A DNA stretch of 64,000 nucleotides, taken from Lepidurus packardi (taxonomy: Eukaryota; Arthropoda; Branchiopoda; Notostraca; Triopsidae). The position numbers and the translations under genes are program-made. The stretch spans positions 4,340,001 to 4,404,000 of the forward strand of contig JAKZAN010000007.1 in NCBI GenBank assembly GCA_023053545.1, in the 5' to 3' direction. This document shows positions 4,801 through 60,178 of this stretch, piece by piece. The notes under the pieces were generated by a model, which saw only the letters and a list, made by a program, of their open reading frames with translations, had not been told where the DNA came from and did no database searches. The stretch's first letter is position 1, and every line of letters starts with the position of its first letter.

Positions 4801-7193
4801 TGCCGCAATGGAGCCAAGCTTACAAATACTAAAAAACATTAATCCCGCCTCTCGGGCGTTGTCAGGGCCGTTCTAAAGGGGGGAAGGTAGGGTGATACAG
4901 AGAGAAAGGCTATTCATTTCTTAAGTATAAGTACGAAGACCTCTGGCTTTACTCTTTTATTGTTTCGATTGGACTCATCAACGCCAGTGCGTCGAAAACG
5001 CAAGCGAAAACGTGACATTCCTGCTTTTCATCGGTTCCGAAATGAAGCTGGATAGACTGTTAGAAAAGTTAGCCTGGTACTGTGACGAGTTTTGGGCAAT
5101 TTTGTTGTTTAGTTTTAATCGAGTTTTCCGTTAACGTGTGTCTGTTTTTATTTACGTCGTATAGGACCATTCAAGATCCTGCGAGTCAACGGTTGACATG
5201 GTACAAGCCTCCACTAACCGTCCTGGTCATCAAGAAGATTCGTGATGCTACCGTGATACAACCTTTTGTGCAGCTCGTGAGATGGCTAATTAGTGTAAGC
5301 ACTTTTAAAACTAAATAGTTAATAATTTTTATTTATATTATTTATTTATTATTATTATTTTATTTATTCGACTATTTAGGAGAAGCGTATGGTAATTTTC
5401 GTGGAGCACACAGTATTGGATGACCCCTTGCTAACGAACCATCCAGGCTTCGTCGGGATCAAAGATAAGCTCATGTCATTCCGGGAAGGCAAGGATGACT
5501 TGACGGACAAAATCGACTTCATTGTTTGTCTAGGAGGCGATGGAACCTTGCTTTATGCTAGCTCACTGTTCCAAGTAAGCTGTTTATTTTATCCACAACA
5601 AAAGAATAATTTATATATATAAAAAATTACACAGAAGTTCTGGCTGAAGAAAGTCTAATTGTAATAAAATTATTTTTAACGTAGCAATCAGTACCACCTG
5701 TTATGGCCTTCCATTTGGGTTCCTTGGGCTTCTTGACACCTTTCGAGTTCGACAATTTCGAAGAGCAAGTTAACAACGTCCTGGAAGGTACAAACTGCGA
5801 AATTTTTATTCATATGCTATTTAGGATTTGCTTGGATTTCGAGATAGTTTATTTGTTTATTGTTTATTGTTTACATAAGTCATGACTAAAATTGATCAAT
5901 CTGGTATTTTCAGGCAACGCTGCCTTGACGCTAAGGAGTCGTTTACGCTGTATTATGCTGCGGAAGGAAGAAATGAACTCGGGGAATGGGAAAAATACCA
6001 AAGGCTCACCGACCAATTTATTGGTCCTCAACGAAGTGGTGATTGACCGCGGGCCCTCTCCGTACTTGTCCAACATTGATCTGTACTTGGACGGGAAGCA
6101 CATCACCTCAGTACAAGGTGATGGACTCATTGTGTCCACGCCGACCGGTTCGACGGCGTACGCCGTGGCTGCGGGTGCATCTATGATTCACCCATCCGTA
6201 CCCGCCATCATGGTCACTCCCATTTGCCCTCATTCACTCTCTTTTAGACCCATTGTAGTACCCGCTGGAGTCGAGCTCAAGGTAAGCTGAGAAACGTTAC
6301 TTGATTATACATTCTATTCTGGATATCTGGAGATGAGAGGGAATGGTACTTAATATGTGGGTGAAATTTGCATTAGATCTCAGTTTCACCGGACAGTCGA
6401 AACACAGCCTGGGTCTCCTTTGATGGCCGAAGTCGGCAAGAACTCCTTCATGGAGATAGGTACGACTTTGCTTCCTTTTTCATCGTAGCCTTTATTGTGG
6501 CGTCGCCATTTATTTTACGCTGTTTTCTGTCTTTTTTATTTTTTGCGACTATACCTCGTGGCTTCCACAAAAAGCAATTAAAAAAACACAAAATTAGTTT
6601 TTTTATTGGCGGTTTGTTTGCTGCATAAGTCTCGTGTTCTATTTTTTTCACCTATCAGGACTATCACGAGGAGAAACCCAGGCCGTGTTGTCACCGTCCG
6701 TTAACCTTTATAACCTTCCTTGAATAAAGAACAAGGAAGTGTTTGTTGAGTAGTTGTGTAATCTTGATGGGGGTGTAACCTAATGCTCCTGCATTGTGCT
6801 CGTGCAGATCACATTGCACCCAGACGCCCGCAACACGGCTTGGATCTCCTTTGATGGTCGTCGTCAGCAGGAATTACGATTAGGGGATAGGTTCGTTGTC
6901 ATTGGCAAAGTCACTTTTGAACTCTTTGTGCACTATGGAGTTTAATGCTCTGGGTTTTCTTTTGTAGCCTGCGAGTGACCACTTCGATCTACCCCGTTCC
7001 ATCTATTTGCTCTCAAGACCAGATTACAGATTGGTTTGCTTCCTTGGCTGAGTGCCTGCACTGGAACGTGCGCAAGAAGCAACGCCATCTGGATGAGTTG
7101 TCGGACCTGACTCGTTCCCATTCACATTCATCCTCGAACGATACCTTGGATTCCCTCGACCGGTTGGACAGGACAGATGCGATTGATAGCTAG
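1821..7193 (+). CDS. NADK: NAD kinase (ATP-NAD kinase), alternatively spliced
   Basis: Phosphorylates NAD+ to NADP+ with ATP. Read exons: 1821-1852, 2012-2095 (distal start) or 4287-4402 (proximal start), then 5165-5294, 5380-5574, 5685-5787, 5914-6281, 6377-6459 or 6808-6890, and 6968-7193. Both start choices give 116 nt ending in the same phase, so each predicted protein is 406 aa. The shared body starts [11 protein letters not shown] and closely follows human NADK. It has the GGDGT nucleotide-binding motif at about residues 134-138, LNEVVIDRG, the glycine-rich STPTGSTAY loop, and the C-terminal DWF...[10 protein letters not shown] block. The distal N-terminus carries RRTRSL, a basophilic-kinase-like site present in human NADK. 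The terminal exon ends in a Ser/Asp-rich tail. Introns are short except the 3-kb intron after the distal exons. Family assignment is very secure; alternative exon use is inferred from phase and conservation. Confidence 0.95.
4064..4092 (+). promoter_or_regulatory. Proximal NAD kinase core promoter
   Basis: TATATATAA begins at 4064. TCATTT, matching the arthropod initiator consensus TCAKTY, lies at 4087-4092 with its A at 4089, 25 bp from the TATA start. The proximal first coding exon begins with the ATG at 4287. The spacing matches that at the distal promoter, which supports two real promoters for one gene. Confidence 0.6.
4287..4402 (+). other. NADK: Alternative first coding exon of NAD kinase
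   Basis: The ATG at 4287 opens a 116-nt coding exon with a good GTAACT donor. It leaves phase 2, exactly the phase needed by the exon at 5165, so it substitutes for the distal pair 1821-1852 plus 2012-2095. Its N-terminus is Arg-rich, has only one acidic residue and includes a WGILRYLV hydrophobic stretch. It lacks the RRTRSL site of the distal form. A mitochondrial presequence is one possible reading, but this is speculation. Confidence 0.7.
6377..6459 (+). other. NADK: NAD kinase mutually exclusive exon, copy a
   Basis: An 83-nt exon bounded by TTAG and GTACGA. It encodes a segment containing [20 protein letters not shown], the family-conserved block just before the GDS motif. It enters in phase 0 and leaves in phase 2, as copy b does. 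It retains human-like residues ([16 protein letters not shown]). Its codons show no stop or frameshift, so it looks functional. Confidence 0.85.
6808..6890 (+). other. NADK: NAD kinase mutually exclusive exon, copy b
   Basis: An 83-nt exon with a TGCAG acceptor and GTTCGT donor. It encodes the same conserved segment as copy a, with the core [20 protein letters not shown]. Length and both phases are identical to copy a. Using both copies, or neither, would shift the frame into the last exon, so productive mRNAs must choose one. The differences fall mainly outside the NTAW.SFDGR core. Confidence 0.85.
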
Positions 7194-26125: not shown

Positions 26126-26516
26126 AATATGTAAAACAGATCATAATAATAATAACAATAACTGTGATGAGACTTCTTTTTGCCCCAGTGCAATATGTCG
26201 GAAGGACTTTGGTGTCAATCATTCCGTTTGCGAACGAGACAAAAAGTTGTTCGCGTTGGTCGCGTTCCTATTACTCAAGTCATGTGCGTGCGGGTGAGTG
26301 TGTTGCTTGTTTATTCAATACAAAAAATACCACATCAAAATGGGTATAATGGACATAATTGGTAAATCTAACTTGGATTGAGCTTAGAAAATCACAGTTA
26401 GCCACAGGGGACATGGAGAAGGAGTCAATACAGGTTACTTACTCCCGTGACGAAAATAATCCAATACAGTTAAACAATTAACATGGACCTTCAAGTCACA
26501 TCCAGGGCACAACGCG

Positions 26517-45448: not shown

Positions 45449-46582
45449 ATGGAATATATTGGCCGTGTGGTTGATGACGAGGACTCGCATGTGTTTCGAA
45501 ATTTAAATGGTATTACTTATCACTAAAAACGTATTTATTAAATTTTAGTTATTAGATGGAAAAGAAACATATTTGTCAATGGCTTTGGTCCGGGCCCTAC
45601 AATTAGAGCATTTAGTTCCTGTAGTAGAAGTAGGTCCACCAAGTGTTCAAGCAGGATTAGAAGAAACAGAAGTAGTTTTCTTAAGTGGCAGTCAGGTAAA
45701 TGTGACAATTGAAGCATTTCGTCAGCTGCAAATTTGAACGTGTTTTTCCTTCAACAGAATGAAGAAAGCCGACAGACTTTTGTAGCTCGGGAAGAAAGGT
45801 GGACATCTAGCTCCCTTAAAGAATTAGATGACGCAGCCACGACAATTTTTTTAAATATCATTGCTAGGCCTTCTGTTCAACAGGCACTGAAAGGAAAAAA
45901 ACAAACAGGCAAATCTGTTTTTGCTGAGATCGCACAAGAGATGCTGGACTTAGACATCAATTTAGGCAAAGATCCAAAACGTAAATGCACAAACAAGTGG
46001 AACAATCTAAAAACTGGATACAAGATCTGGATGGATAATTCCAAGACAACGGGTGCTGCACCCAAGAAAAAACCTGAATTTTTTGACCGAGTTCACGATA
46101 TATTACAGGCAGAGCATAGTGTGAATCCGGTAAATTTATTCGATAGTAGCGAGCCCCACCAACTTGAGAGTATTGCCGCTGAACTTAACTCATCAGCGAG
46201 AAACACGGAAACTTTCGATGAAGTCTTACAAGTAGATCCTTGGGAAGAGTTTAACACTTCTTCTAAAGCTATTCCTACATTGAAGAAATCCAGTGCCAAA
46301 CGTGAACGGCGTGCTGGACTACAAGAAACTTTGAAGGCTATAGACGAAATAGAAGCTCGTGTAGCAGAACGCTTTTCAGAAACGTCGTCTTTTCGACGTG
46401 ATGCCCTCCAAATTTTAAAGAAGAACGCTAAGCAAAGCAAGAAAACGGGGAAAGAGCTAGTGGATGTATTAAAGAGTTTTTTAGCTGTAGAACAAGAACG
46501 TCTAGCTGGTGAAAAAGAACGGGAGGAACGGAGACGCAAGCGTCACCGTCGTTCACAATCGTCTGATGATTCAGACCACTAA
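45449..46582 (+). CDS. Harbinger accessory DNA-binding protein (MADF/trihelix-like)
   Basis: Exons 45449-45509, 45556-45695, 45758-46582, phases consistent, giving 341 aa with no stops. The middle exon uses the TTATTAG acceptor, which keeps the frame. The central part (about residues 80-165) has the Trp-spaced pattern of Myb/SANT/MADF domains found in Harbinger second proteins: RWTSSSLKELDDA, LDINLGKDPKRKCTNKWNNL and YKIWMDN. The C-terminus is Lys/Arg/Glu-rich with helical repeats and a basic KRHRRSQSS tail that may act as a nuclear signal. In characterised Harbinger elements this protein helps bring the transposase to the nucleus and ends. The gene appears intact although its partner transposase is broken. 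Confidence 0.8.
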
Positions 46583-56458: not shown

Positions 56459-58484
56459 ATGCCGAGCTGTTGTGTTCATTCCTGCACGGAAGAAACAGGA
56501 AAATCTTACAAATTGAGTGATGGACCGAAAATATCTTTCCACAAGTTACCGAAGGAACCAACGTTATTAAAGCAATTAACATCCCGTATTAAGCGAGATC
56601 TTGGGCTAAACATAAAAGTAAATGAACGTGTTTGCCTTCTTTTTGTTTATTTTTAAAACGTTGGATTTTACTGTCGAACAGGTTACCAAAAACACTGTTA
56701 TTTGTTCGAAACATTACAACACCGAGGATTTCTACTGTTGCGACCCTCCATCGGGAAGACGTCAGCTGAAACCTGGTGTTCTACCGTCTGTATTCGAATT
56801 TAAACCTAAGCCGAAACAAAGGAAACCTCGCAAAGAACACAAATCACCAGCGAAAACTTTTACTCCTGATCAAGAGGAAGCTGCCAACATTATTGAAGAA
56901 AACAAACTTTCGGCGAGCAAACCTGTGTTTGAATCCCAACCGTCCAGCGAACTGTTACAGATTCAATCTCCGCATTTACATTCGGAGCCTGCCGAAACTC
57001 AACTTTACACCCCAAATGAAGCTCTAAACGGACAAAGTCTGGTCACTTTATCCTCGGACGAACCAATCTGCAACTCACCACAAATAGCAAACGAGTCTCA
57101 AAATACGGAACATCAGCACGTGGCACGTACAGAACGGGAACAGGAGTTATCAAGCATAAATGTCACCTGTGTTCCAGATGAAGCTCACAATTTTGAAGAA
57201 CAATGCGACTTATTGGCTTACGAATCAGGCATTGACTTGCCACAAACAGCTAGCGTTCAAGAAAAGAGGCAACCCTTACAAACAGTTGAAGAGCTTCTTT
57301 CGAAACTGGAAAATATTGAAAAAGAGAAGTATGAATTGCTGTACAGTCTTGAAAAGGAGAAGCAAAAGAGGAAATTAGCTGAAACTGAAACTGCGGCGTT
57401 GAAGGTCTCGCTTGAGGAATCACAGCGAGCACTAAAATCGTCCCGCGACGAAGTACAACAACTTAAGAACAGTAAGATGTCATTCGACAGTATCCGTAAG
57501 AACCCCACCTTGATGAAACTCTACACGGGTATGGAGACCGAGGATGAGTTTTGTGCCTTATATCGCTACTTGGACCCAGGAGATAATTGCGAAAATATTA
57601 TACAATGGCGCGGACCTGTTAGTACCAACTTGAATGCACTACCGACAAGACGAGGGCGACCACAAAAATTGAAAGCCGTCGACCAATTTTTGATGGTGTT
57701 ATGTCGACTGCGATTGAATCTTCTGGAGCTAGATTTAGCACACAGATTTCAAGTCAGCGTTTCCACGGTCAGCAGAATATTCGCTAGTTGGAGCAATTTT
57801 ATGTATTTCCGACTTGGATGCTTACAGCTGTGGCCCTCCAAGGAGTACATAACAGAAACAATGCCAGAGGATTTTCAAGAAAAGTACCCATCTACAAGGG
57901 TCATCATCGACTGTACGGAGCTTAAGTGCGAAAGTCCTGGTTCCTTTATGCTGAAAACGGGCCTCTATTCTCACTACAAGGGGACACATACCTTTAAAGG
58001 TCTTATTGGTATTGCCCCAAATGGTTTTGTCACATTTGTTTCTGCACTTTATTCTGGATCCATTAGCGATGAGGAAATCACGAGGCGTTGTGGAATTTTA
58101 AACCAGGCTTATGAAGATGGAGATTCAATAATGGCAGACAAGGGATTTAATATCAAAAAGATGCTGCCAAATGGTGTCTCCCTCAATATTCCCCCGTTTA
58201 AGCGTGGGGACCGCCAGTTTAGCAGGGAAGAAGTTCAAGCGACACAGGAAATTGCTTCTCTTAGAGTGCACGTCGAAAGACGAATTGCGAGGATAAAGAG
58301 CTATAGAATTCTCTCGCAAGTTATTCCACACTCTTTAAGAAGTCTTGCTAATCAAATTTGGACTGTATGTGTTATTTTGTCAAATTTCCAAACTCCCATT
58401 ATTAATGCAACTGTAGAAGACCCTCTCGAGCCCGTGATGTATATTTCCGAAGAGAGTTGTAATGACTCGGATTCTGATTCTTGA
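56459..58484 (+). CDS. THAP-domain DDE transposase of ISL2EU-like element
   Basis: Exons 56459-56617 and 56682-58484, joined in phase 0 across a 64-nt intron inside the THAP domain, giving 653 aa. The THAP C2CH zinc finger is made by CCVHSC at the start and CSKHY after the intron, with the LKPGVLPSVF (AVPTIF-like) box at about residue 90. Residues ~100-250 are polar and disordered, then a coiled coil (about 255-335). A helix-turn-helix region (DLAHRFQVSVSTVSRIFASW) precedes the DDE_Tnp_4-type nuclease: VIIDCTEL (Asp), MADKGFNI (Asp), HVERRIARIK (Glu). No stops or frameshifts, so it may be active. The acidic SNDSDSDS-like end is unusual. It would cut and join the element ends. Confidence 0.9.
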
Positions 58485-58591: not shown

Positions 58592-60178
58592 TTAAGTATT
58601 AAGTTTGGATGAAGGCTTCAAAACATTACTTTTGGAATAAAACGGCAGTGCATAAGAGAAATAGAATAGGTTCAGTTTTTGTGACATTTCATTCCATTTA
58701 ACAGGATCAAATCTAATGCGCTCAATAATCAATCCTTTATACGTAAAAACAACAAAATCGCACCACTTCAAACCAGTTAAGGCCATTTGGCCCATAACTT
58801 GCCAGTAATATTCGTGTGACCGGTTCAGCCTAGGTGTACCATCAACGAATTGCACGTAGAAATTTGCAGTCGAAAGACATTCTTTGGCAGTTTGATTCCT
58901 TAAAGAATAGGGGCACTTGAATTCTGCAAGACCCTCGGGGTCATTTTCAGTTGGATCAAATACACGTCGGTCCGGACTAGCAGCCAGCCAATACCGGTTG
59001 GGGTCTATTACAAGGCCACATAAATGTGCTGTAATCTGGTGTCCAAGGTGGTGCATGGAACTCTGATAGCGAGTTGCAGCTACGGATTCAAATTTTTGCC
59101 CATGTGTAATCTGCCGGAGGTTGGAAAGGTCCCGGCTTTCTAGCACGTTTTTGATTCCTTGCAATGTCCACGGAGATGAACGTTTGACGATCTGGCCGAA
59201 AGTACTGGCCGTTACCCTGTAAAATTGAAAAATACTTTATTCAAATGAGTTTGTTCCAGTTACTGAGCTACTAAAACTGTACCTGAATGCACGTTCCTGT
59301 TTCACGTCATCACGTCTATCATCACGATAGGCCATCACGTCATACTCTGACTCGTTGGTATTAAGTTGAAATACGAGGGTTGACTGCCCAGGTACCTCAC
59401 CGAGACGAGTCAATTTCCCCGAAGACGAAGCAATTGAAGTCCCACTCCTAAGGAGTCTGGCAATATGCTTGTTCTTCCGTTCAAACGATCGAGAAAGCTC
59501 ATCAACAGCATTCTTGTGTTCCGCGTCGAACCGAGGCTTCTTACAAGGCTGGAAAGCATTACACTCGCCGTGGCTTTCATCTGTAAGCCTGAACGAAAAT
59601 TCATTCCGGGTTCGAGACCGGCCCCACTGCTGTGGCTTACTGGTGCATGAAATTTCTGGAGGAACCTCTGTAAAACCTTCTTTCTGATAAACGTGTAAAA
59701 GTTTTAAGGTGGCTATCGCGTGGTTACAGTACCCAGGACTCCCAACTGTGCAAGAACAGCTTACAGAAACTATGGCATCACCTGGTACAAAAGCCTATGT
59801 AAAACAAAAATAATAATAATCAATATAAAGACGAGGCAACGAGCTATGCTCAAGCCTCTATTAAATCGAAAAAAAAACTATGGCATCTTGCCACGAAATA
59901 CAACATACCGATGTTCTAAATAGAAGTTCCACCCGATGAGGAGCATCGTTTTTCCTGAAACTTCTGTTGCATCTGGCTCTAACGCGAATTTGATTGCCAC
60001 AAGGAAGAAGTTGAGTTTCCACGTCCGTCACGTAGTGCTCGTTTAGGAAAAGTTCACTTCGATTATAATGCCTGGCTGATGTAGTCTGTTGCTCAAAATA
60101 TTGCTGAATAAGTTTCTCAGTTAGCTTTGGTAGCTTCTCTATATTTTTACACCAAGTTTCACTAATATTTTCGGCCAT
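58592..60178 (-). pseudogene. SWIM zinc-finger / YqaJ-type nuclease of ISL2EU-like element, interrupted
   Basis: Two exons: 60178-59283 (holding a foreign insertion) and 59216-58592. Leaving out 108 bp at 59767-59874, the exons fit in phase 2 and would encode 470 aa. The N-terminus is helical and polar. A SWIM zinc finger follows (CSCTVG..GYCNHA, C-x-C...C-x-H). The C-terminal domain is a YqaJ-like lambda-exonuclease fold with WLAASPDRRV (Asp), GLAEFKCPYS (E-x-K), the YYWQVMGQMALTG helix and CDFVVFTY. Within the insertion a stop (TAA) follows soon after the GATGCCATAG sequence, so this copy gives only the N-terminal ~105 residues. I see no splice pair that restores the frame cleanly. In the family this protein probably processes DNA at the element ends; that role is inference. 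Confidence 0.85.
59767..59887 (+). mobile_element. 108-bp retrotransposed insertion with A-tail
   Basis: Target duplication AAACTATGGCATC at 59767-59779 and 59875-59887 flanks 95 bp plus an A-run, on the plus strand. The A-run directly before the second duplicate copy is typical of LINE-mediated insertion. Its 3' tail (GGCAACGAGCT..GCTCAAGCCT..TTAAATCGAAAA) resembles that of the LINE at 43587 (GGCAACAGGCTTTCAAGCCT..TTAAATTGAAAA). It is probably a 5'-truncated copy of a related LINE or SINE. Confidence 0.8.

Follow-up and report, generated by a model that had tools for sequence, protein, structure and literature searches.

How might a gene that holds two alternative copies of one internal exon come to use one of them in each mRNA? 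The question arises for a NAD kinase gene of the notostracan Lepidurus packardi, found in a stretch of 64,000 nucleotides (the window) that covers positions 4,340,001 to 4,404,000 of contig C6 in a 108.6-Mb assembly of 344 contigs. NAD kinase sets the size of the cellular NADP pool and hence reducing power. If both copies are used, splice variants that differ by nine residues of the C-terminal domain would let a single gene retune the NADP step according to tissue, stage or stress.

The NAD kinase gene and its product

The gene lies on the forward strand of the window and is complete apart from the choice between two alternative exons, which we call A and B. Its likely first coding exon (1821 to 1852, with a putative start) continues in an open frame into exon 2 and ends at a GT donor. 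Exons 2 (2012 to 2095) and 3 (5165 to 5294) were placed by in-frame joining, exon 3 also by alignment to NAD kinase chains. Such alignment together with the joined frame also places exons 4 (5380 to 5574, with the GGDGT motif), 5 (5685 to 5787) and 6 (5914 to 6281, with the NEVVIDRG motif and an end in VPAGVELK). Downstream of A and B, the common last coding exon (6968 to 7193) ends in TDAIDS, followed by a stop. Joined to the other exons, either alternative copy gives a 1221-nt frame that encodes 406 amino acids with no inner stop.

The best match among solved chains, obtained with a query of 367 residues (the protein without its first residues), was 9cr3_A, labelled NAD kinase (E = 3.3e-151, 339 residues aligned). 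We take this chain to be human NAD kinase; its numbering fits the residues named in PMC12052686. The NAD kinase domains of Pfam all scored above cut-off (PF01513, 63.5 bits; PF20143, 133.6 bits for isoform A and 131.5 bits for isoform B).

Two old exon copies, very probably used one per mRNA

The initial annotation described two tandem 83-nt exons of identical length and phases, and its coordinates are exact: exon A occupies 6377 to 6459 and exon B 6808 to 6890, both on the forward strand and separated by an intron of 348 nt. Each copy comprises 27 codons and two further nucleotides, is entered in phase 0 and left in phase 2, and is preceded by AG and followed by GT. They align without gaps and are identical at 56 of 83 nucleotides, with differences distributed 8, 5 and 14 over codon positions 1, 2 and 3. 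At the protein level, nine of the 27 residues differ (including Ser/His, Arg/Gln, Leu/Arg and His/Leu exchanges). Estimates of divergence, rough with 27 codons only, were dN 0.28 and dS 1.49 by NG86, and dN 0.22 and dS 2.14 by maximum likelihood. When 27 random changes were placed in exon A, 60% of 20,000 runs contained a stop, and 0.01% combined as few residue changes as observed with no stop. The real copies are both stop-free and keep the NTAW(V/I)SFDGR core, as had been described, and the 406-residue frame is intact with either. Because 18 of the 27 residues have been kept although silent sites are close to saturated, both copies have evidently long been selected as protein. This pattern of change points to purifying selection on both exons and to an internal exon that was duplicated in tandem long ago.

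Joint use and joint skipping both break the frame, again in line with the initial annotation: A followed by B meets a stop within B, and omission of both leads to an early stop in the last exon. Exon-junction-dependent decay spares stops located in the last exon. Since its stop lies there, the double-skip form would be a truncated product rather than an ordinary target of such decay.

Identical phases, purifying selection and frame incompatibility make mutually exclusive use the best-supported reading of this locus, and on these grounds we consider it very probable that each mRNA carries either A or B. The copies have the sequence properties expected of tandem duplicated mutually exclusive exons, being adjacent, homologous and equal in length and reading frame. 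Their splice sites are AG and GT at both copies, with a moderate match to consensus; the donors of A and B each agree with the 5'-site consensus at 6 of 9 positions, as do three of the six other donors of the gene. The acceptor of exon A has the poorest pyrimidine tract (0.41) among the eight acceptors scored.

This poor tract would also fit a reading in which one copy is dead or cryptic, a remnant beside the other, which alone is spliced. A dead copy of such age should, however, have lost its frame or its residues, and neither copy shows a stop or a frame loss despite the near-saturation of synonymous sites; we regard this reading as improbable. Use of exon A as an alternative last exon, with read-through to a TAA at 6626 to 6628 and an AATAAA at 6723 to 6728, is less probable again. 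About 55 open codons do follow A and the AATAAA comes after them (within 6461 to 6728), but such a transcript would drop the conserved last exon and leave both the phase-matched second copy and the GT site of A unexplained. An assembly artefact that duplicated one exon, the danger named in the initial annotation, has a negligible probability, because the copies differ in 33% of their DNA (27 of 83 nucleotides, with a coding pattern of change) and occur at this locus alone. A search of all 108.6 Mb found A, B and the last exon in this single place each, and nothing was found in favour of an artefact.

Two general causes of exclusion were considered. Incompatibility of U2 and U12 splice sites was rejected, as the cluster has no sites of mixed type: the donors at the ends of exon 6, A and B, like the acceptors in front of A, B and the last exon, all read GT or AG, U12-type sites are absent from among them, and no donor of the cluster fits the U12 consensus. 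Steric interference needs fewer than 50 nt between donor and branch point, according to the available text of PMC5740500. The intron between A and B, at 348 nt, appears too long, which disfavours this cause.

An antisense element in the intron between the exons

The initial annotation had the exon pair right and overlooked an element in the intervening intron that offers a mechanism of exclusion. At about 6659 to 6707, the minus strand of this intron resembles the exon core, and the forward-strand transcript is a near-complement of exon A at 6382 to 6424 and of exon B at 6831 to 6859. Of 42 aligned bases, 34 agree with A, to which the element adds three bases while lacking one; the corresponding count for B is 28 of 42. 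We compared RNA pairing with shuffles for nine pairs of cluster parts. The A–B intron paired exceptionally with A (z = −4.13) and with B (z = −4.01), each beaten by none of 200 shuffles, and none of the remaining seven pairs passed the 5% level; with nine pairs examined, the significance of the two outliers is somewhat diluted. Neither exon paired with intron I1 or I3 beyond shuffles.

Alignment statistics gave a similar picture. The antisense scores of the element are 36 with A and 31 with B, and scores as high for either exon occurred in none of 3000 dinucleotide shuffles and none of 1440 window fragments. Among 4268 fragments from 254 kb of genome, none scored as well with A, three did with B, and none did with both. 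By duplex energy, calculated for one third of these fragments (1423), 16 were as good with A, eight with B and one with both. On the other side, local inverted repeats are not uncommon. When antisense matches within the next 348 nt were counted for exon-like segments, a score of at least 36 occurred at 15 of 3429 segments and a score of at least 31 at 33 of 3429, rising to 390 and 514 of 8094, respectively, when segments of low GC or low complexity were included. The possibility that the element belongs to a repeat family was rejected, given its single match in the genome, as was a third, sense-strand copy of the exon in the A–B intron, for which the best score with either exon (18) was near the shuffle means (17.8 and 16.9). 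We regard the element as almost certainly a real inverted copy of the exon core.

Comparisons within the gene and the genome provide controls. When the other NAD kinase exons were aligned against seven introns of the gene (exons 3 and 5 being one base off at one end in this comparison), the top antisense score was 34, between exon 4 and the intron of 3,068 nt, whose length makes chance matches more likely. Other exon–intron pairs reached at most 27, and short introns at most 23, A and B with the A–B intron excepted. A muscle-type myosin head exon is present in three tandem copies, nearly identical in protein (C2, 11535026 to 11536248), so tandem exon clusters do occur in the L. packardi genome. 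We presume this triplet to be the relay exon; clusters of this sort have been described in the muscle myosin of arthropods. The two introns between its copies gave antisense scores of 18 to 29, against 31 and 36 at NAD kinase; scores over the whole 10-kb myosin stretch, a far larger search space, were 34 to 38. The idea that duplicated exons have an antisense layout as a general habit was rejected on the scores of these myosin introns, a small control of one gene.

Predicted competition between two pairings

The predicted energy of the core duplex is equal with A and with B (−43.3 kcal/mol each), and pairing of the element with the whole exons is predicted at −58.0 kcal/mol for A and −57.6 kcal/mol for B. 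One element is complementary to two competing sites, as in docker-selector systems. How the two pairings are shared varies with the stretch folded. For a transcript of 6377 to 6890, the predicted shares of A and B were 0.34 and 0.32 when folded at 37°C but 0.21 and 0.46 when folded at 20°C; they were 0.41 and 0.24 in 5914 to 7193 at 37°C, and 0.65 and 0.02 in 6282 to 6967. These modelled shares indicate competition, not the state favoured in the cell. Removal of the element from the 6282 to 6967 fold left more of exon A unpaired: the unpaired share rose from 0.28 to 0.41 in the exon body and from 0.40 to 0.55 at the 3' site. The 5' site of A was unchanged (0.46 and 0.45), as were exon B and its sites, in a fold from which the pairing with B is nearly absent. 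The predicted changes upon removal are modest.

Frame failure would remove the joint product, but it does not choose an exon. In the mechanism that we propose, the element in the nascent transcript would be paired with either A or B, never with both; the exon so bound would be hindered and skipped, and the free exon would be spliced in, while frame failure would clear most splicing mistakes. By holding one exon at a time, the element would explain both exclusion and choice. Because A and its partner are transcribed first, pairing with A may be the usual state and B the exon normally included, unless A is freed by a factor, by temperature or by the speed of the polymerase. We rate a role of the element in splicing through such a pairing switch at somewhat below an even chance. 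More tentative still is the full proposal that the element acts as a one-to-two RNA switch that both keeps A and B from being included together and selects the form of NAD kinase produced.

Selection on the pairing or a neutral relic

The main competing explanation shares exclusive exon use with ours. It ascribes this to splice-site strength, protein factors and the loss of frame-shifted mRNA, and takes the antisense element to be an inert relic; we consider its chances to be even. The acceptor tract of A, the poorest of the eight at 0.41, and the donors of both copies, unexceptional at 6 of 9, fit such an explanation, and frame logic alone would hide wrong splice products. The pairing itself can be judged against simulation. 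Among synonymous recodings, 3 of 3000 for B and 53 of 3000 for A pair with the element as strongly as the real exons do. With the further requirement that the recoded exon resemble the other copy as the real one does, the counts are 9 of 2000 for B and 40 of 2000 for A. A copy of A that drifted to about the observed distance paired as evenly with B in merely 8 of 3000 runs, which argues against a relic, and paired with B at the observed strength in 112 of 3000; the model is approximate, its mean simulated pairing with A being −50.2 versus a real value of −44.0. Also counting against a relic, the element fits either A (nine sites) or B (three sites) at all 12 aligned sites where the exons differ; of the 30 sites that are identical in A and B, five are mismatched in the element.

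The age of the element matters here. A relic of the same age as the two exons should have decayed: for an element attached at 0.5, none of 600 runs at dS 1.5, and fewer than 1% at dS 1.0, kept both pairings at the observed strength. A free-drifting element of that age is unlikely because simulated relics decay beyond recognition. For a younger element, drift runs reached both pairings at the observed strength or above in 0 to 10% of cases at attachments of 0.3 to 0.7 along the path from A to B, in favour of the relic, in up to 21 to 27% at attachments of 0.2 or 0.8, and in most runs close to the tips. Runs attached nearer the tips gave a pairing with the nearer exon that is far stronger than the real one. 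These results suggest selection on the pairing between element and exons; a realistic alternative is a neutral relic, left by an inverted copy that arose after the exon duplication.

Relation to known systems

CG6145 is the fly NAD kinase gene, and we found no paper on mutually exclusive exons in it in the literature searched. The initial annotation knew of no prior description of such exons in a NAD kinase, and our search of the literature likewise found none among the titles and abstract openings listed; supplementary tables or exon databases may list one. Tandem mutually exclusive exons are an already known kind: the available passages of PMC9741552 report 154 Drosophila melanogaster genes with tandem duplicated exons of this type, and those of PMC5740500 a human set. 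Like these, the NAD kinase copies are adjacent, homologous, equal in length and phase, and both intact. They differ in that the gene is NAD kinase and that they are known here from sequence. NADK is unnamed in the main text of those two papers, and "NAD" does not occur in the passages available from PMC3228551, PMC3923563 and PMC7318467. Within the literature searched, NAD kinase appears to be new among genes with such exons.

Competing docker-selector structures have been described for Dscam exon 6, 14-3-3zeta, Mhc and MRP1 (PMC6071210, in its available passages). The docker of these systems occupies the first or last intron, and their selectors are intronic as well. The NAD kinase locus resembles them in having one element, two sites, one pairing at a time and a tie to tandem exon duplication. 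It differs in that the element lies in an internal intron and its partners are exon bodies, so that neither a docker in a flanking intron nor selectors in introns are present. We rejected a classic docker-selector pairing between introns, as pairing in these usual places was not beyond shuffles (I1–I2, z = −0.03; I2–I3, z = −1.49; I1–I3, z = −0.5). An internal layout with pairing of antisense to exon is possibly new relative to the published docker-selector arrangements. If the switch is real, this would be a compact case of exon duplication becoming mutually exclusive splicing, with 49 intronic bases, two exon targets and equal energies. A short inverted copy of an exon would in that case produce exclusion by itself, a simpler route than that of docker and selectors as presented in the same passages of PMC6071210.

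For the ATE1 exons 7a and 7b, Kalinina in 2021 reportedly described elements R1 and R4 that compete for R3. Competing structures at these exons are cited in the available parts of PMC8052449 and PMC10790352. As at NAD kinase, two mutually exclusive exons are placed under competing pairings; the ATE1 elements, in contrast, are treated in the passages available from PMC8052449 as intronic, with possible overlap of splice sites, and not as exon bodies. Precedents for such exons in metabolic enzymes are the oyster alternative oxidase, which has a duplicated exon (PMC5589949), and OGDH, whose exons 4a and 4b are described as mutually exclusive by virtue of distant branch points (PMC7969005), both according to available passages. 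NAD kinase is a different enzyme from either, and exclusion in OGDH is ascribed to branch points.

Position of the exon block in the enzyme

By alignment to 9cr3_A, the exon block corresponds to about residues 368 to 394 of the human enzyme, in a numbering that agrees with Cys349, Leu353 and Arg356. It falls in the late part of the C-terminal beta-sandwich, which spans 238 to 402 (PMC12052686). The accessible text of that paper names substrate residues (GGDG 182 to 185, Asn284, Glu285, Tyr295 and Tyr327) and tetramer contacts (289, 290, 327, 329, 335, 349, 353, 356 and 425). The exon block holds none of these, and five residues within the block that we sought in the same text are not mentioned there. 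The initial annotation placed the block near the nucleotide-binding site and the subunit interface. The first part of this claim is weak, as none of the residues named in that text lies inside the block; as for the second, the tetramer-interface segment 349 to 356 stops 12 residues ahead of it. The accompanying proposal that exon choice tunes NAD affinity is weakened, since the residue mapping does not indicate that the NAD site itself is altered. Relative to the human chain, isoform A keeps Arg387 and His392 without Arg391, and isoform B keeps Arg391 without Arg387 and His392. The two isoforms probably fine-tune the C-terminal beta-sandwich (its stability, assembly or regulation) and not the chemistry.

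Other observations in the window and the assembly

A search of viral contigs for related loci found none, and one of genome contigs found one bacterial NAD kinase locus. In the assembly, contigs C52, C43 and C214 carry long, stop-free COX1 frames, and C52 and C42 carry NAD kinase domains; the sequences suggest that these four contigs are bacterial, from a symbiont or a contaminant. Long myosin head matches on contigs C297, C275, C124 and C259 are interrupted by TAA or TAG alone and never by TGA, which looks like an organism that reads TAA and TAG as glutamine, for example a ciliate that lives on L. packardi. Contigs C1, C2, C4, C5, C6, C21 and C38 hold numerous COX1 fragments that contain TGA codons in frame and look like nuclear copies of mitochondrial DNA. 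Within the window, strong local inverted repeats occur near 26511 and 17741 (scores of 100 and 78 within 431 nt). Frames resembling mobile elements are found at 45734 to 46582, 56622 to 58484 and 58592 to 59164, with Myb/SANT-like, DDE transposase (the THAP match being below cut-off) and YqaJ-type recombinase domains.
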